From contig NC_054537.1 in NCBI RefSeq assembly GCF_017654505.1, positions 72,598,618 to 72,662,617 on the forward strand: DNA of 64,000 nucleotides, read 5' to 3'. Positions 12,169-41,279 of the stretch are shown in pieces. The notes below the pieces were generated by a model, which was not told where the DNA came from, did no database searches, and was given only the letters and a program-made list of their open reading frames with translations. The translations under genes were made by a program, and so were the position numbers. Source of the stretch: Polyodon spathula (Eukaryota; Chordata; Actinopteri; Acipenseriformes; Polyodontidae). Numbering within the stretch: position 1 is the stretch's first letter; every line of letters begins with the position of its first letter.

Positions 12169-12749
12169 ATAATTTTACAACATTTGCTAGTAGTATAGCA
12201 GTAAAGTTAGTTTTTAACAAGAGACGAACAAGATTTTGTAAGTAATGATTATGTATTATCCCGATTTCATCTGATTTCATCTTTCATCTGATTTTGCAAA
12301 CTATCATAATAAGCTTGATCCGTTCATTTAGAATATTATAATATTTTGATGTTTAGGAAGTAGTGCTCAGGGACAAGGTGTTGAATTCTCAAAATGCTTG
12401 TTTTATTTAAAACTACAGATAATTCCTGTCGGGCCAGACACCAAAATGATAACCCTACGTTTTAGTCTTGGCACTTTCACTGCTTGTTCTCTCCAGTCAC
12501 AGCTCACACGCTTGCTCAGTTGCACCCACAGTTTCTCATTCAAGTTCAGTGCTGGACTGTCACCCCCTTATATATCCTCCTGTCATTTCCCGTCACTGTC
12601 CAACTCATAAATCAGTCAAATCCATGCTCTGCAACCCCTGAAAAAACAACAACAACACACATTCTCCCCACTCATTCACTCACTCCCCCTTCCCATGCTA
12701 AGTAATGGTGTGACCCGTTCCCCTTACAATACACGTAACATAAAAGACA

Positions 12750-13350
12750 GACGAGACAAACTGAACAGACAACAAGTCCTGCAACAAAGCAATTGTCTGA
12801 GACGTTACAATTACCTATATGGTAACAGTATCCTGGTAGACGGTCAGCATGGTTTTAGGAAAGGGAGATCATGTTTAACTAACCTGCTTGATTTTTTTGA
12901 GGATGCAACATCGACAATGGATAATTGCAAAGCATATGACATGGTTTATTTAGATTTCCAGGAAGCTTTTGACAAAGTCCCGCATAAAAGATTAATTCTC
13001 AAACTGAACGCACTAGGGATTCAAGGAGGTGCATGTACATGGATTAGGGGGTGGTTAACATGTAGAAAACAGAAAAGTACTGATTAGAGGAGAAACCTCA
13101 AAATAGAGCGAGGTAACCAGTGGAGTACCACAGGGATCGGTATTAGGTCCTCTGCTATTCCTAATCTTATTTAATGACTTAGATCCTGGTATCGTAAGCA
13201 AACTTGTTAAATTTGCAGACAACACAAAACTAGGATGACAAACATCATTGCAGCAGCAAAGGTCATTCAAAAAGCTACTAACAATCAAACAAGCAAGATT
13301 GGCTGAATTGCCTCCTCTCGTTTGTAAACTTTCTATTCATCTTATGTTCT
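12750..13350 (+). mobile_element. CR1/Jockey-group LINE, 3' end with partial RT
   Basis: The frame from about 12750 encodes reverse transcriptase blocks QHGFRKGRSCLTNLL, VYLDFQEAFDKVPHKR and WIRGWLTCRKQ, then breaks at 13085. After the break the same domain continues with [14 protein letters not shown] and FNDLDPG. The catalytic (F/Y)ADD box reads FADN. The endonuclease half and about 100 residues after the catalytic box are missing. The non-coding tail ggctgaattgcctcctctcg ending tcttatgttcttat is typical of this LINE group. This is a dead, 5'-truncated and internally deleted copy. Confidence 0.85.
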
Positions 13351-15262: not shown

Positions 15263-15268
15263 AACGTG
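15263..15268. repeat. Left 6-bp target-site duplication (aacgtg)
   Basis: Immediately outside the left AG terminus. It matches aacatg at 19485-19490 except for one CpG-type transition. Maverick/Polinton integration makes 6-bp duplications. Confidence 0.75.
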
Positions 15269-15524
15269 AGTAGTATTATTACTACAGCTAACGTCAAAAA
15301 GTTATGATGGATAACCTTTTGACCTTATGATTATGATTATGAATATTTATGAATATATAATGAGGGGGTATGAATATATGATGAGGGGGCGTGAATATAT
15401 GAATATATAAATATATAATGATGGGGATGTGGATTTTATATAGGAGTAGGGAATATATATATAAAACAGGTGCTTATAAAACATTGAATATTTATAAATG
15501 TAAAGAGTTTGAAATAAAAATAAT

Positions 15525-15609
15525 TACTGTTGGTAGGATTTGAACCCACGCTGACAATTTAGTCAAATGGATCTTACGTCCATCACCTTAACCGCTCGGC
15601 CACAACAGT
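15525..15609 (-). tRNA. Class II tRNA, Leu(UAA)-like, in left arm
   Basis: 85 nt. The acceptor ACTGTTG pairs perfectly with CAACAGT and A is the discriminator. D arm GCC/GGT, anticodon stem ATGGA/TCCAT with loop CGTAAGA, long variable stem TGAC/GTCA, T stem GTGGG/CCTAC with loop TTCAAAT. Box A (TGGCCGAGCGG) and box B (GGTTCAAATCC) agree with Pol III promoters. The anticodon would be UAA (Leu), but the universally conserved U33 is G. Overall it looks like tRNA-Leu(UAA). It is identical to the right-arm copy. Function in decoding is doubtful because of G33; transcription is plausible, and a T-rich tract follows the 3' end. Confidence 0.85.
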
Positions 15610-15713
15610 TTTTCTTAATGTGCTACTAAATAGAAAATAAGAATTAAGCTTACCGGGGTTCTGAGAATCATGACGGGTGTTTGAGCAAAATGTCCAACCC
15701 CCAATCTTTGGGG

Positions 15714-15731
15714 AGCCTACTAAATAGGCCC
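15714..15731. promoter_or_regulatory. Small hairpin upstream of the zinc-motif ORF
   Basis: gcctactaaataggc forms a 5-bp stem (GCCTA/TAGGC) about 35 bp before the ATG and is conserved in both arms. A role in expression of the ORF is only a guess. Confidence 0.25.
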
Positions 15732-15763
15732 ACAGACCCTTTTGATTGAAGGAGTCTGCCGCC

Positions 15764-16449
15764 ATGTCTTCTGCAAACTTTAGATACTTCTCTGAAAATG
15801 CCATTCTTGAACCTTGCGATCTCGAGATGGATTGGACCAGTGAAGAAATGACCCAGCTTATAAAAGACTTTGAAAATGTCCCCCTCCTCTACCCTGCGGA
15901 TTCTGACGACGTCGACGGTCCTTTAGGCATCTCTTCTGAAAAAGTATTAAAGATCTCTGCGGGTCTCATAGCTTCTCTATTGGAAGTGATCATCGACCGC
16001 GATATGCTGAAAAATTGCAGCGGTTGCGAAATTGATCACCCGAGCCAGCTGAGACACAGCTGCCTTTTTGAAGCGGACCTAAATTATTTTGATCAACATT
16101 TTGAAGAAATACCAGAAAAACTACACGTCCCATGGCTGAAACTTCTGGTAGAAAAGCTCTAGCTTGTTTCAATTTCCATCCATCTTTGACGAGACTTCAG
16201 AAACTGGTGGAAGATATTTTAGCGGAGCTAAGACCTGAACGCTGCATTCGACATAAACTGCGCCTTCTACAAGAAACCTTGGATGACAAGACCCGAGACA
16301 TTGTTAACAAAATAACTAAGACTTTTTACCACCGCAGCTTTACTAACCCACAAGCTCCTTTAGTTTATTACGGAGCCTATGACTTTGAAAATGGGGAACG
16401 TCCAGACTTCGGTCCAACTGCGAAAAACCATGGAGGGGCTGCTGTTTGA
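15764..16449 (+). pseudogene. Virus-like zinc-motif protein, left copy, frameshifted
   Basis: The ATG at 15764 lies in an excellent initiation context (gccgccATGt). The first frame runs to a stop at 16162. A 1-bp loss near 16149, compared with the right copy, shifts it, and the similarity continues in another frame to 16449. The N-terminal third is acidic. Around residues 88-105 lies CSGCEIDHPSQLRHSC, a CxxC...HxxxxHxC arrangement that could bind zinc. The C-terminal part is helical and charged. I cannot name the family; position and style resemble E1-region or 'oncoid' accessory proteins of adintoviruses, which is inference. It overlaps the Bcl-2-like frame at its 3' end, a compact viral arrangement. 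Confidence 0.6.
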
Positions 16450-16866
16450 GTTAATAGCGGCGAAAGTGGCATGCAAGAGACTCTTTCAAAACCAGATCCC
16501 CGTAAATGTTAAAATGTTCAACAATTTAAAAAGTGTAACTGATTTAATCCATCAAGATGCTGGTGCTCAAGAATGGCTAGAGTTGGTAGATACGCATGTA
16601 AAACAGTGTAACCTATTAAAGGCGTTTTTAATGAATATATTACCTAAGATGTTTGATGATATAGAAGAATGCAAATGTGCTCATATCACTGTTTTGTATG
16701 CTTATGTGACGGATGTCTTTTTTATAACATGGCAATGTTTTTAAGAGATGAAGATATATCGAATATTGTACAAAATGTCGTGGATTATTTAATGACTAAT
16801 CATGAATGTTTGTGTAAAAACTTTACACTTCTTCTAAAATGTCCTAATCTTCTTGATAACCTTTGA
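16391..16866 (+). pseudogene. Bcl-2-like (E1B-19K-like) protein, frameshifted
   Basis: A first frame from ATG 16391 (or 16379) to the stop at 16744 and a second frame from about 16738 to 16866 read as one interrupted protein. It is all-helical in character. The segment FDDIEECKCAHITVLYAYVT has the spacing of a Bcl-2 BH1 region, with a hydrophobic helix after it. After the frame change, DISNIVQNVVDYLMTNHE resembles the following Bcl-2 helix. The conserved NWGR and the BH2 W are not present, so the assignment is moderate at best. Adintoviruses and adenoviruses carry anti-apoptotic Bcl-2 homologues in this kind of position. The stop overlaps an AATAAA signal (16866-16871), giving a compact viral-type 3' end. 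Confidence 0.45.
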
Positions 16867-16919
16867 ATAAAAACTTTTTGAATTACTGATTTGTAGCAGT
16901 TGGGTTATTTTGGTTAAAG

Positions 16920-17924
16920 ATGGCACATCGGCGTATGAAAAAAATATACTACGATCCAGCAAATCCTGGAGGGTTAGGAGGGTTACAGACTCTTCAAAGG
17001 GCTATTGGGTCTGAAGGGCCTAAAGTCTCTGAGAGGGCCATAACCGCCTTTTTATCAGAGCAAGACTTGTACACGCTGCATAAACCCTCTAAAATAAACT
17101 TTAAAAGAAACACCGTATTTGTATCTAATATCGATACACAATGGCAAGCTGATTTAGTGGATATGTCTAGCTTGTCAAAAGAAAATGGAGGTTACAAATA
17201 CATGCTAACATGTATAGATATCTTATCTAAATATGCCTGGGTAATACCGTTGAAAAATAAGTCATCTATTTCTGTGACAGAGGCTTTCAAGAGGATTCTC
17301 AGCACGGGTAGGAAGCCTAAAAAACTACAAACCGATAAAGGGACAGAGTTTCTGAACAAAACATTTCAACACATGCTAAAAAAACATGATACTCTACACT
17401 TTACCACGGGGAATGAACTAAAAGCCTCTATTGTTGAGAGATACAACAGGACTCTGAAAACAAAAATGTGGAAATATTTCACCGCTTTTAACACTCACAA
17501 GTATACTGATAAACTACAAGAAATGATTCAGGCCTATAACAACTCCTTTCACCGCAGTATTCAAATGAAACCTTCGGAAGTTAATGAAGACAATTCATTT
17601 AAAGTGTTTAAAACTTTATACTCTAAGAAGAAAAACCCTAAACATATTAAGTTTAAGTTTACAGTCGGTGACAACGTTAGAATTTCAAAGTTAAGAGCGC
17701 CCTTTATAAAAGGCTATGAACAGATGTTTACTGCTGAGATTTTTACTATAACAGAATGTATACCGAGATTTCCGCTGGTGTATAAACTATGTGGTTATGA
17801 TGGAGAATCTATAACGGGTACCTTTTATGAACCGGAATTGCAGAAAATAAATGTCAAGACTGATAGGTTGTTTAGGATAGAGAAGATAGTTGCTGAGAAA
17901 AAGGAAAATGGTAAAAAGTCTTAG
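16920..17924 (+). CDS. Maverick/Polinton-type retroviral-like integrase, intact
   Basis: A complete 334-aa frame with ATG in good context (aaagATGg). N-terminal segment: KKIYYDPANPGGLGG and SEQDLYTLHKP, hallmarks of Maverick/Polinton integrases. The catalytic rve core has Asp78 (DTQWQADLVD), Asp139 (LQTDKGTEF) and Glu173 (SIVERYNRTLK), so the DDE triad is complete, with 33 residues between the second Asp and the Glu. NNSFHRSI then follows, and a basic C-terminal SH3/chromo-like region with GDNVRISK. No HHCC finger is evident. It acts in the nucleus to insert the element's DNA, giving 6-bp duplications. It is the only undamaged protein gene of the element. Its last codons and stop lie inside the right inverted arm. 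Confidence 0.92.
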   Translation: MAHRRMKKIYYDPANPGGLGGLQTLQRAIGSEGPKVSERAITAFLSEQDLYTLHKPSKINFKRNTVFVSNIDTQWQADLVDMSSLSKENGGYKYMLTCIDILSKYAWVIPLKNKSSISVTEAFKRILSTGRKPKKLQTDKGTEFLNKTFQHMLKKHDTLHFTTGNELKASIVERYNRTLKTKMWKYFTAFNTHKYTDKLQEMIQAYNNSFHRSIQMKPSEVNEDNSFKVFKTLYSKKKNPKHIKFKFTVGDNVRISKLRAPFIKGYEQMFTAEIFTITECIPRFPLVYKLCGYDGESITGTFYEPELQKINVKTDRLFRIEKIVAEKKENGKKS

Positions 17925-17988
17925 TTATTTTGTTAACAATGCCTCGGGTCTTGTCATCCAAGGTTTCTTGTAGAAGGCGCAGTTTATG

Positions 17989-18477
17989 TCAAATGCAGCG
18001 TTCAGGTCTTAGCTCCGCTAAAATATCTTCCACCAGTTTCTGAAGTCTCGTCAAAGATGGATGGAAATTGAAACAAGCTAGAGCTTTAGCTACCAGAAGT
18101 TTCAGCCATGGGACGTGTAGTTTTGCTAGTATTTCTTCAAAATGTTGATCAAAATAATTTAGGTCCGCTTCAAAAAGGCAGCTGTGTCTCAGCTGGCTCG
18201 GGTGATCAATTTCGCAACCGCGGCAATTTTTCAGCATAACGCGGTCGATGATCACTTCCAATAGAGAAGCTATGAGACCTGCAGAGATCTTTAATACTTT
18301 TTCAGAAGAGATGCCTAAAGGACCGTCGACGTCGTCAGACTCCGCAGGGTAGAGGAGGGGGACATTTTCAAAGTCTTTTATAAGCTGGGTCATTTCTTCA
18401 CTGGTCCAATCCATCTCGAGATCGCAAGGTTCAAGAATGGCATTTTCAGAGAAGTATCTAAAGTTTGCAGAAGACAT
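17989..18477 (-). pseudogene. Virus-like zinc-motif protein, right copy, truncated by a stop
   Basis: Minus-strand counterpart of the left-arm gene, starting at ATG 18477 in the same gccgccATG context. It keeps the frame through the point where the left copy is shifted. It then ends early at 17989, where a CGA-to-TGA change (CpG-type transition) replaces the Arg codon that the left copy retains. The motif reads CRGCEIDHPSQLRHSC. The downstream coding part is also cut by the end of the arm at 17910. The two copies are therefore broken at different places, meaning independent damage after the arms were formed or last homogenised. Confidence 0.65.
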
Positions 18478-18548
18478 GGCGGCAGACTCCTTCAATCAAA
18501 AGGGTCTGTGGGCCTATTTAGTAGGCTCCCCAAAGATTGGGGGTTGGA

Positions 18549-18935
18549 CTATAAGGTGTGATAATGCCTCCGGACCGAGGGAGGTCCTTTGAGACGACCT
18601 ATCAGAGATCCACGAATAGGCGTTCCTTGAGGCATTGCCCCTAGGGGCGTTTTCATAGTTACCCTAAAGCAGCCGCCTCCCTCTCTCTCATTCGAGTCTA
18701 TTTTCACTTCAGTCCCCAGAGGAGTATGTTCCATACACAGAGGATCCTTGGAACATATACTTAAAGGCACTTGCTCAGACTCTCTTGAACCTTTTTTACA
18801 TTCCACGGTTTCTTCTTCAGCCTCCTCCGAGAAAGGGCTAATGTGTAATTTTTTAAAAGCGTTTATAAGTTCATCCATTTGCTGATCCTCAAGATCCGCT
18901 TTCTCAGAGTAGGAACTAGCAACGGAATGAGACAT
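18549..18935 (-). CDS. Unrecognised 128-aa protein, unique to right arm
   Basis: Minus strand; the ATG at 18935 (MSHSVASSYSEK) has A at -3. An open frame from a non-ATG codon at 18962 exists but is less likely. The protein is acidic in its first half (residues ~15-45, DELINAFKKL then an EEAEEE run), with cysteines in a middle segment (SICSKDPLCMEH). The C-terminal half is basic and Gly/Pro-rich with a repeated TPLG/TPIRG pattern. No family is recognised. It lies upstream of, and in the same direction as, the zinc-motif gene with about 70 bp between them, so co-expression is plausible. The left arm lacks it through a 508-bp deletion bounded by gac microhomology. Confidence 0.5.
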   Translation of the reverse strand: MSHSVASSYSEKADLEDQQMDELINAFKKLHISPFSEEAEEETVECKKGSRESEQVPLSICSKDPLCMEHTPLGTEVKIDSNEREGGGCFRVTMKTPLGAMPQGTPIRGSLIGRLKGPPSVRRHYHTL

Positions 18936-19012
18936 CTTGTGTAACACTCTAATAATTGGCACATATATTTTCCTCCTTTTATGAGGTCTGAAAAACAGGC
19001 TCAGACCTACCC

Positions 19013-19017
<5 letters not shown>

Positions 19018-19052
<35 letters not shown>
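19018..19052. repeat. Poly-A run inside right arm
   Basis: 35 consecutive A residues preceded by cccctttt, at the outer edge of the 508-bp segment missing from the left arm. Confidence 0.95.
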
Positions 19053-19054
<2 letters not shown>

Positions 19055-19139
19055 GACATTTTGCTCAAACACCTGTCATGAGTCTCAGAACCCCGGTAAG
19101 CTTAATTCTTATTTTCTATTTAGTAGCACATTAAGAAAA

Positions 19140-19224
19140 ACTGTTGTGGCCGAGCGGTTAAGGTGATGGACGTAAGATCCATTTGACTAAATTGTCAGCG
19201 TGGGTTCAAATCCTACCAACAGTA
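19140..19224 (+). tRNA. Class II tRNA, Leu(UAA)-like, in right arm
   Basis: Mirror copy of the tRNA at 15525-15609, with an identical 85-nt sequence. All stems pair (acceptor 7 bp perfect, anticodon 5 bp perfect, variable 4 bp perfect, T stem with one G-U). The anticodon loop is CGTAAGA, so G replaces U33. A T run (attattttt) follows within 10 bp, as expected for Pol III termination. The two tRNAs point outward, each toward its own element end. Confidence 0.85.
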
Positions 19225-19484
19225 ATTATTTTTATTTCAAACTCTTTACATTTATAAATATTCAATGTTTTATAAGCACCTGTTTTATATATATATATTC
19301 CCTACTCCTATATAAAATCCACATCCCCATCATTATATATTTATATATTCATATATTCACGCCCCCTCATCATATATTCATATACTCACGTCCCCTCATT
19401 ATATATTCATAAATATTCATAATCATAAGGTCAAAAGGTTATCCATCATAGCTTTTTGACGTTAGCTGTAGTAATAATACTACT

Positions 19485-19490
19485 AACATG
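19485..19490. repeat. Right 6-bp target-site duplication (aacatg)
   Basis: It differs from the left copy aacgtg by one G-to-A change at a CpG. Confidence 0.75.
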
Positions 19491-28805: not shown

Positions 28806-29815
28806 ATGGCAAGGCAGCAGCTCAATGCAGATGTTGTTGCTAAGTTTGGCTCAGAGAGTGATTTTATGTGTATATGAACCAAGTGACACTTCCTCCAGTG
28901 AGGAGATCAACAGTGGTTAGGGAGTGGAGCCTATGGAAACTGAGCCCGAGCCCCTGCCTGAACCCAGTATAGTAGGTGGGTCTGGACCAAGGGGTGGTAG
29001 ATTTCAGCCATTCTACCACTGGATCCCCCCTAACATCAGCCTCAGATACCCCTTTTTTCTGGCACACAAGGTACCAGTATGAACACAACTGAAGTCATTT
29101 TTCAATATTTGGTAACCCAAACCAATTTGGATGCCCAACAATATCTGACACAGCATGGGAACAACCTGGGGCCACATTCTAGTGAGCCCCCATAAAGGTT
29201 TTCCAAATAAAATATGTTTTGGGGCTTATCGCTTTTAATGGGATTAGGAGATAAACATAGAATGGATTTATTTTGGCCCACCAACCAAATCCATGCTGCT
29301 CCAGAAGCTTGCCCGTTATGCAGTTAAATTGTACAAACTCTGTGAGAGCTTCACTGGGTACATTCATTGGTTCAGAGTGCACACAGGGAGGAACTCTCAG
29401 ATTGAGCTGCCTGGCTGTCCCCCATGCTTCCAGACCACTGAGAAAATTGTGTTTGATTTTGTTTTTCCCCTCCTAAATCTTGGCTACCATTTGTTTGTAG
29501 GTAACTTCTACACAAAGATTCCTCTGTTTAGGGCCTTGTACACATCACAAACAATGGCTTGTGGTACAATAAGACCCAACAGGAAGGGATTTCCACGACA
29601 ACAAATGGAGGCATGGCGAAACCAGCGCTCTGTACTGTGAGGAACTGCTGGCTGTTAAATACACTGACAAAAACTGTAGCAGTTCCTGTGCAAGATCAGG
29701 ACACACGCAAATAAGCCCAAGTGTGTCCTGGAGTACAGTAAATTCATGGGAGACGTGGATAAGTCAGACCAGATTTTGGAGCCGTACGATACTGTAAGGA
29801 AGACCATGGCATGCG
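28806..29815 (+). pseudogene. piggyBac-family transposase (PGBD-like) remnant
   Basis: The similarity begins at ATG 28806 (MARQQLNADVVAKFGSESD) and continues over several frames. A block resembling VTQTNLDAQQY then GLSLLMGLGDKHRMDLFW spans about 29110-29280. The longest frame (29293-29637) has CESFTGYIHWFRVHTGRN, VFDFVFPLLNLGYHLFVGNFY and ACGTIRPNRKGFP. The last block is KPKCVLEYSKFMGDVDKSDQ and EPYDTVRKTM at 29720-29810. These are standard piggyBac DDD domain blocks: the second Asp is replaced in VGNFY (family DNFY), and DxSDQ at the end is kept as DKSDQ. Several stops and deletions make it inactive. No TTAA-flanked termini found. Confidence 0.88.
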
Positions 29816-39641: not shown

Positions 39642-41279
39642 CAGTGGCTTGCGAACGTATTGACCCGCCTTGGCATTTTTCCTATTTTGTTGCCTTACAA
39701 CCTGGAATTAAAATGGATTTTTATTTGGATTTCATGTAATGGACATACACAAAATAGTCCAAATTAGTGAAGTGAAATGAAAAAAATAACTTGTTTCAAA
39801 AAATTCTAAAAAATAAATAACGGAAAAGTGGTGCGTGCATATGTATTCACCCCCTTTGCTATTAAGCCTCTAAATAAGATCTGGTGCAACCAATTACCTT
39901 TAGAAGTCACATAATTAGTTAAATGAAGTCCACTTGTGTGCAATCTAAGTGTCACATTATCTGTCACATGATCTCATTATATATACACCTGTTTTGAAAG
40001 GCCCCAGAGTCTGCAACACCACTAAGCAAGGGGCACCACCAAGCAAGCGGCACCACGAAGACCAAGGAGCTCTCCAAACAGGTCAGGGACAAAGCTGTGG
40101 CGAAGTACAGATCAGGGTTGGGTTATAAAAAAATATCAGAGACTTGAACATCCCACGGAGCACCATTAAAGCCATTATTAAAAAATGGAAAGAATATGGC
40201 ACCACAACAAACCTGGCAAGAGAGGGCCACCCACCAAAACACGGACCAGGCAAGGAGGGCATTAATCAGAGAGGCAACAAAGAGATCAAAGATTACCATG
40301 AAGGAGCTGCAAAGCTCCACAGCGGAGATTGGAGTATCTGTCCATAGGACCACTTTAAGCCGTACACTCCACAGAGCTGGGCTTTACGGAAGACTGGCCA
40401 GAAAAAAGCCATTGCTTAAAGAAAAAAATAAGCAAACATGTTTCGTGTTCGCCAAAAGACATGTGGGAGACTCCCCAAACATATGGAAGAAGGTACTCTG
40501 GTCAGATGAGACTAAAATTGAGCTTTTTGGCCATCAAGGAAAACGTTATGTCTGGCACAAACCCAACACCTCTCATCACCCCGAGAACACCATCCCCACA
40601 GTGAAGCATGGTGGTGGCAGCATCATGCTGTGGGGATGTTTTTCATCGGCAGGGACTGGGAAACTGGTCAGAATTGAAGGAATGATGGATGGCGCTAAAT
40701 ACAGGGAAATTCTTGAGGGAAACCTGTTTCAGTCTTCCAGTGATTTGAGACTGGGACGGAGGTTCACCTTCCAGCAGGACAATGACCCTAAGCATACTGC
40801 TAAAGCAACACTCGAGTGGTTTAAGGGGAAACATTTAAATGTCTTGGCCTAATCAAAGTCCAGACCTCAATCCAATTGAGAATCTGTGGTACGACTTAAA
40901 GATTGCTGTACACCAGCGGAACCCATCCGACTTGAAGGAGCTGGAGCAGTTTTGCCTTGAAGAATGGGCAAAAATCCCAGTGGCTAGATGTGCCAAGCTT
41001 ATAGATACATACCCCAAGAGACTTGCAGCTGTAATTGCTGCAAAAGGTGTCTCTACAAAGTATTGACTTTGGGGGGGGTGAGTACTTATGCACGCTCAAG
41101 TTTTCTGTTTTTTTGTCTTATTTCTTGTTTGTTTCACAATAAAAAATATTTTGCATCTTCAAAGTGGTAGGCATGTTGTGTAAATCAAATGATACAAACC
41201 CCCAAAAATATATTTTAATTCCAACAAAATAGGAAAAATGCCAGGGGGGGGGGGGGGTCAATACTTTCGCAAGTCACTG
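39642..41279 (+). mobile_element. Tc1/mariner element, nearly complete
   Basis: 1638 bp between TA dinucleotides (39640-39641 and 41280-41281). It starts cagtggcttgcgaacgtatt and ends with its near complement (aatactttcgcaagtcactg). Inner inverted similarity includes ggcatttttcctattttgtt. The transposase gene sits centrally on the plus strand. A G run at 41244-41257 lies inside the right inverted repeat. The high preservation indicates a relatively young copy. Confidence 0.95.
40055..41066 (+). pseudogene. Tc1 transposase, start lost and frames shifted
   Basis: The expected start reads ACG at 40055 (caccACGaagacc). The N-terminal helix-turn-helix part (KTKELSKQVRDKAVAKYRSG, GYKKIS) breaks at about 40142. 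It continues as NIPRSTIKAIIKKWKEYGTT in a second frame, then from about 40235 as DQARRALIREATKRSK in a third. Catalytic Asp residues are present in LWSDETKIELFG and QQDNDPKHTA. A further shift at about 40850 separates these from [19 protein letters not shown], which carries the catalytic Glu. The triad residues survive but three frame breaks plus the lost ATG make it non-functional. Confidence 0.93.

Follow-up and report, generated by a model that had tools for sequence, protein, structure and literature searches.

A probable snap-back defective Maverick/adintovirus genome, with its integrase end duplicated in inverted orientation, inserted in the germline of Polyodon spathula

The DNA analyzed here is a 64,000-nucleotide stretch of the Polyodon spathula genome (contig NC_054537.1, positions 72,598,618 to 72,662,617; "the window"). 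At 15269..19484 it contains a 4216-bp element, hereafter W, with the ends and the integrase of a Maverick/Polinton or adintovirus. Two inverted arms flank a single-copy loop, an integrase gene runs up to the border of the right arm, and a 6-bp target-site duplication (TSD) encloses the whole:

15263..15268, no strand: left TSD, AACGTG, read from the sequence
15269..16331, plus strand: left arm, the parent's native integrase end, which relatives carry collinearly in one copy
15269..15500, plus strand: part of the left arm that belongs to the native terminal inverted repeat (TIR), from the far-end matches of longer relatives
15691..15692, no strand: left-arm site without the 505 bp found in the right arm, with GTC microhomology, from the arm alignment
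16317..16331, plus strand: upstream member of a 15-bp inverted microhomology, TAAGACTTTTTACCA, from sequence comparison
16332..17908, plus strand: single-copy loop separating the arms, from the inverted-repeat comparison
16920..17924, plus strand: Maverick integrase, catalytic core kept and chromodomain cut by the junction (rve, PF00665, E 8.4e-13)
17909..17923, plus strand: fold-back junction, TGGTAAAAAGTCTTA, where integrase side and inverted-arm side overlap, from the junction search and the relatives' sequences
17909..19484, minus strand: right arm, the integrase end copied in inverted orientation, 1576 bp, from the inverted alignment and the junction search
19485..19490, no strand: right TSD, AACATG, read from the sequence

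W begins with AGTAGTATTATTACTAC at 15269 and finishes with GTAATAATACTACT at 19484. Its ends, AGTAGT and ACTACT, correspond to (AGT)2//(ACT)2, one of the two terminus types described for vertebrate Mavericks/Polintons, the other being (AG)3//(CT)3 (PMC8097293). The two TSD copies agree at five of six positions and differ by a single CpG-type transition, and their length of 6 bp is that of the vertebrate elements. An initial annotation of the window had placed here an element with AG...CT-type ends and a 6-bp duplication carrying one CpG transition, and had assigned it to the Mavericks/adintoviruses as an integrase-type insertion. Termini, TSD and integrase homology bear this out.

The long inverted arms and the intact DDE integrase of the same annotation stand in part. 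Inverted blocks of 460, 242, 179, 98 and 84 nt with 92–99% complementarity are indeed present, and 13 of 1054 aligned sites are substituted between the arms, which also differ by gaps. These arms are unequal, the largest gap being 505 bp (18550-19054) that occur in the right arm only and are bounded by GTC repeats; they are also several times longer than the TIRs of longer relatives and are not ordinary TIRs. The integrase keeps a homologous rve core of Maverick type, with D78, D139 and E173, which we take to be the DDE triad, in invariant columns of a 17-sequence alignment. Its chromodomain is shortened by the junction. All 16 aligned relatives extend beyond the C-terminal end of the W integrase, which stops in mid-chromodomain where the right arm starts, and 114 of 120 integrase relatives among the matches listed (4715 found) contain the PF00385 chromodomain. 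That the integrase halts at the start of the right arm was the first hint that this arm is secondary.

The two halves of W join inside the integrase chromodomain at the 15-bp inverted microhomology. When the host assembly (1.54 Gb) was searched with 201 bp across the integrase/right-arm border, the window alone among the best 40 of 44 candidates spanned the query (1-201). All other matches either covered the integrase side and ended at or before position 115, or covered the arm side and started at 97-107; where a locus matched both sides, the arm side lay inverted and upstream of the integrase. At L038, L041, L042 and L046 (L numbers denote host loci compared with W, C numbers genome positions), the integrase side continues through to the chromodomain, with the arm side in opposite orientation. 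The motif TGGTAAAAAGT[C/T]TTA is found on both sides in L038, L039, L040 and L041; its variable base is C in the integrase-side copy and T in the arm-side copy. L042 and L046 deviate from the motif slightly more. Both W copies have C, which correction of a hairpin mismatch would explain, as would a variant already in the parent, and we place no weight on this base. The right half of W is, with near certainty, an inverted duplicate of the integrase end. W is more than an internally deleted form, one of the two readings first offered: a mirrored integrase end has taken the place of the lost half, and the integrase is cut short at the junction.

None of seven tested frames of W has a Pfam match to PolB, ATPase, capsid or protease, and none of the 52 matches to PolB (PF03175) in the host genome lies at the window position. 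The proposed reduction to integrase plus accessory genes is correct in what is missing; of the accessory genes, the frame beginning MSSANF is disrupted in both arms, by a frameshift on the left and a stop codon on the right.

Longer relatives indicate how the parent was organized. The host genome holds at least 126 integrase matches; such counts are lower bounds, since the candidates scored were the best 120 of 3385 from the integrase search, the best 40 of 52 from the terminus query, 25 of 25 from the accessory-region search and 76 of 76 from the PF03175 search. An element at C9:11.758-11.7706 Mb carries the integrase, a protease-like frame and, at the opposite end, PolB (PF03175, E 7e-11); its left terminus is worn. 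This order agrees with the published one, in which integrase module and PolB module face each other with accessory genes outside (PMC8097293). The protease-like frame matches PF00770 with E 2.7e-3 in C9 and E 4e-4 in L042, both below the curated cut-off, and the candidate capsid/ATPase frames of C9 and C16 have no Pfam match. The predicted longer relatives with PolB and capsid genes are therefore present as far as PolB and a protease-like frame are concerned, the capsid and ATPase genes being candidates only.

The far ends of longer relatives (C6, C9, C16, C23 and C11) match the terminus query only to 113-256, and the integrase ends match it through a transfer RNA (tRNA) gene at 257-341. The C3 and C9 ends have about 285 bp in common from the terminus (264/286 identical). 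These limits imply a native TIR of about 200-290 bp, AT repeats included, and place the tRNA and accessory genes as single copies at the integrase end. The accessory region was found in 23 loci (27 matches); C3:5.03 and C2:37.14 carry it twice, inverted, and W is a third case by its arms. The relatives L038 (C3:97.43 Mb) and L039 (C6:34.58 Mb) have the same host flank beside the integrase end and are probably one insertion that was duplicated along with its surroundings.

W is one of several such elements. The host genome contains at least three integrase-end fold-backs, W included, and one fold-back of the PolB end; the junctions are all different, and each is private to its element. The screen covered W's Maverick family and was centred on the integrase end; the PolB-end case was a chance find among the sequence stretches compared, outside any systematic search of that end. 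L040 (C3:5.03 Mb), closely related to W, is an integrase-end fold-back of 4.6 kb with AGTAGT/ACTACT ends, a perfect TSD (AATGTG), arms of 1067 bp and two tRNAs. Its junction has an overlap of 0-1 bp, lies 0.39 kb downstream of the W break and is spanned by L040 alone among the best 40 of 46 candidates. L044 (C2:37.14 Mb), also an integrase-end fold-back, has arms of about 0.99 kb; ARAGORN calls one tRNA in it, and the other copy carries a deletion. Its junction, downstream of that of L040, has a 24-bp overlap (21/24 identical in L045) and occurs in L044 alone among the best 40 of 61. The PolB-end fold-back at C8:1.0846-1.0952 Mb (C8:1084570-1095200; L052/L054) has arms of about 3.2 kb (left, L052 3570-6737; right, L054 5200-3552 and 755-1 plus L052 9000-8522), the right one split by a 2.8-kb stretch with long frames. 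Its loop (L052 6738-8521) matches the PolB end of the C9 element, its TSD copies TGAAGC and TGCAGC agree at 5/6 positions, and its junction is private among the best 40 of 43. With three more fold-backs of different junctions in the genome, the fallback offered by the initial annotation, a one-off deletion, is incomplete as well.

Two smaller elements came to light. L047 (C16:17.78 Mb, 934 bp) was considered as a fold-back and rejected, its inverted part being no longer than the native TIR; it is classed as an internal deletion. L048 (C1:35230094-35230260) consists of 167 bp with Maverick termini only and a perfect TSD (TGCGGC), which suggests that the termini alone are enough for insertion.

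W probably entered the germline as the defective, snap-back (fold-back) genome of a fish Maverick or adintovirus. It has the build expected of such genomes, with one end duplicated in inverted orientation and joined to internal sequence. To judge from sequence comparison, the fold-backs are likely to have arisen before integration, while linear viral DNA was replicating by strand displacement. The PolB that Mavericks encode is protein-primed (PMC8097293). Linear viral DNA would be copied from the integrase end, and the growing strand would pause in the chromodomain and anneal to the 15 complementary bases that it had synthesized about 1.6 kb earlier. The folded strand would then extend itself to the terminus by copying its own 5' part, forming a hairpin, and one further round would give a double-stranded linear molecule of arm, loop and inverted arm with two good ends. 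An integrase, its own or that of a helper, could insert this molecule, the 6-bp TSD resulting from the action of Maverick integrase at the ends. If termini suffice, as L048 suggests, a helper integrase would be enough, and the truncated protein of W need not work.

A broader proposal is made more tentatively, and we would sooner bet against it than for it: replicating linear Maverick viruses may repeatedly have produced snap-back defective genomes that viral integrase placed in the germline, so that these elements would be fossils of defective-interfering genomes and would record protein-primed strand displacement. The excess of integrase-end cases (three versus one, in a search centred on that end) might reflect a packaging signal at that end, of which the tRNA-like gene might be part.

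The same architecture could also come about in the chromosome, if the right TIR invaded the left TIR to repair a break in the right half of a full-length insertion, copied the integrase end in an inward direction and was then linked to the integrase through microhomology. The TIRs supply some 200-290 bp of homology for such an event, its product would retain both termini and the TSD, and hairpin-primed fold-back inversions are known from yeast chromosomes, where the junctions are explained by a single-stranded hairpin extended by polymerase (PMC7467729). The yeast fold-backs start at chromosome breaks and yield chromosome rearrangements, whereas W is a bounded mobile element. Repair would also need four independent occurrences in this one genome, at one or the other element end. 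Later copying of the inner arm within the chromosome would leave a TIR older than that arm. Substitutions in TIR versus inner arm amount to 2/226 versus 11/828 in W (Fisher p 0.75), 1/208 versus 14/824 in L040 (p 0.33) and 1/60 versus 22/908 in L044 (p 1.0), and to 4/494 versus 47/2560 when the three integrase-end elements are pooled (p 0.12). The TIR is thus not more diverged in any of them, in a test of low power. We consider chromosomal repair unlikely, though a rival to be taken seriously. The TIR test leans toward arms made in one step before insertion, short of proof. Trees from region-wise alignments join the arms of each integrase-end element as sisters, with support of 0.996 for L044, 0.965 for L040 and 0.895 for W (on the inner 640 bp). 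Arms differ within an element by 1.4, 1.5 and 2.9% (W, L040 and L044) versus 2.5, 3.2 and 6.4% to the nearest other element. The 13 differences between the W arms, five derived on the left, seven on the right and one unclear, fit the expectation for a duplication. Several observations weigh against a replicative origin of snap-back genomes. The outer TIR of C8 is more diverged than its inner arms (7/153 versus 51/2754, Fisher p 0.03), as chromosomal repair would have it, in an AT-rich region that is difficult to align; with all four elements pooled, TIR and inner arm do not differ (p 1.0). Two of the four junctions have little or no microhomology, 0-1 bp in L040 and none by search in C8 (by eye perhaps 4-5 bp). 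L044 has lost its left terminus, and its TSD is unreadable. The sister support for the W arms is modest, and an earlier tree with 340 badly aligned columns left the L040 arms unjoined; this tree was superseded because the left-arm 505-bp gap had spoiled its columns.

The initial annotation had raised a distinct short element type, that is, a non-autonomous or satellite family that replicates in the 4.2-kb form, helped by complete relatives. Good termini, an integrase core, relatives in the same genome that carry PolB and a protease-like frame, and the hint from L048 that ends alone are insertable would all suit such a family. However, no second copy of W was found: its junction is spanned by one of the best 40 of 44 scored matches, which is not the pattern of an amplified family, and the other short forms each have their own junction. 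We regard this explanation as very improbable. Long inverted repeats are a recognized class of artefact, and an inverted chimera from assembly or library preparation would mimic the build of W. This is hardly credible for arms that differ by 13 substitutions and by gaps including one of 505 bp, that border on distinct host flanks with a TSD, and that recur in like architecture at three further loci. A search for the empty site with the left flank returned dispersed repeats only (best 40 of 595).

A defective viral genome of the kind that we favor for W has counterparts elsewhere. Daniell (1976) and Daniell and Mullenbach (1978) reportedly described defective adenovirus DNAs, some with the left end duplicated in inverted orientation; SYREC DNA is said to be a related case. 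Incomplete adenovirus particles carry left-end DNA, and the viral genome is linear DNA with terminal protein (PMC5033970). Both W and the defective adenovirus DNAs derive from one end, although W is an inherited insertion in a fish genome and Maverick particles have not been observed (PMC8097293). In the human cytomegalovirus strains AD169 and Towne varS, the right-hand region is replaced by an inverted duplication of the left end (PMC2885757). W resembles them in this replacement; in contrast to W, they are herpesvirus laboratory strains with full-size genomes. With vertebrate Mavericks/Polintons and adintoviruses, W shares the ends, the 6-bp TSD, an integrase gene at the head of an inward-pointing module and the accessory genes outside it (PMC8097293). 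Unlike these elements, it measures 4.2 kb instead of the 12.7-24.6 kb of intact Mavericks, has no PolB, ATPase, capsid or protease, is an integrase end on both sides, has a truncated chromodomain and contains a tRNA gene beside the TIR; the word "tRNA" does not occur in the main text of PMC8097293. Among the best-matching open-licence literature on Mavericks and adintoviruses, no title dealt with fold-back or defective-interfering forms.

Mavericks are virus-like by gene content, and their mode of replication has so far been inferred from genes. If our interpretation is true, TSD-bounded fold-backs are a physical trace of linear strand-displacement replication. Such fold-backs, recurrent and datable in one genome, can be tested for across sturgeons and other fish, and they would provide a route from a large virus-like element to small insertions derived from it that lack PolB and capsid genes.

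Each arm of W also contains a tRNA-like gene:

15525..15609, minus strand: outward-pointing tRNA-Leu(TAA)-like gene of the left arm, from ARAGORN/Rfam-type evidence and sequence comparison
19140..19224, plus strand: outward-pointing tRNA-Leu(TAA)-like gene of the right arm, on the same basis

The Rfam tRNA model matches with 51 bits (gathering 29). The gene borders the TIR on its inner side at the integrase end, points to the terminus and is single-copy in longer forms. That it belongs to the native TIR can be ruled out, as the far-end matches of relatives stop before it. A copy at the integrase end was found in L038-L044, L047, L053 and L055-L057. Across the 18 loci and the window this amounts to 16 copies at 13 places, the window being one of them. 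L045, L046 and L060 are without a copy, and their ends gave no match to that part; L049, L050 and L051 do match that end part, so the gene must have been degraded or lost there. ARAGORN called tRNA-Leu(TAA) in nine of 24 stretches and tRNA-SeC(TCA) in two. The base before the anticodon is G in all four copies of W and L040, and the usual U in the other 12. The simplest guess as to its role is that it may provide a Pol III-transcribed RNA at the genome end.

The W integrase is 51-62% identical to the 16 aligned relatives, among them proteins of Astyanax mexicanus (60%) and of "Pimephales minnow adintovirus" (53%). It differs from that of L038 by 8 synonymous and 14 non-synonymous codons. We do not claim selection on this gene, as an open frame is unsurprising over so short a divergence. 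Its PHROGs matches are transposase families and some families of unknown function. Scanning IMG/VR for the integrase and for the accessory protein turned up no relative; an alignment query of IMG/VR gave nine loci with 24-32% identity over part of the integrase, which were not used further. The accessory frames are the following:

15746..16162, plus strand: frame MSSANF..., left copy, ending early by a frameshift relative to relatives of 228 aa, from alignment
16132..16449, plus strand: frame with the remainder of the MSSANF accessory protein, from alignment
16379..16744, plus strand: second accessory frame, 121 aa, without a Pfam or PHROGs family
17989..18495, minus strand: frame MSSANF..., right copy, terminated by a stop codon, from alignment
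18549..18962, minus strand: accessory frame found in W in the right arm only; relatives have the region at the integrase end, from the genome search

Four relatives of the MSSANF protein were found in the protein database, one with 90% identity; the other three are Acipenser sinensis proteins (aligned at 86, 55 and 48% identity), as would be likely for an acipenseriform host. In PHROGs, one of the five accessory frames has a weak match of unknown function (E 0.07) and the other four have none.

Elsewhere in the window, fragments of other mobile elements occur on the plus strand. A Tc1-like transposase fragment (PF01498) lies at 40148-40852, and a transposase fragment at 29248-29640 (PF13843) is presumably of the piggyBac type. 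A reverse transcriptase fragment (PF00078) at 12611-13087 probably derives from a LINE-like element.

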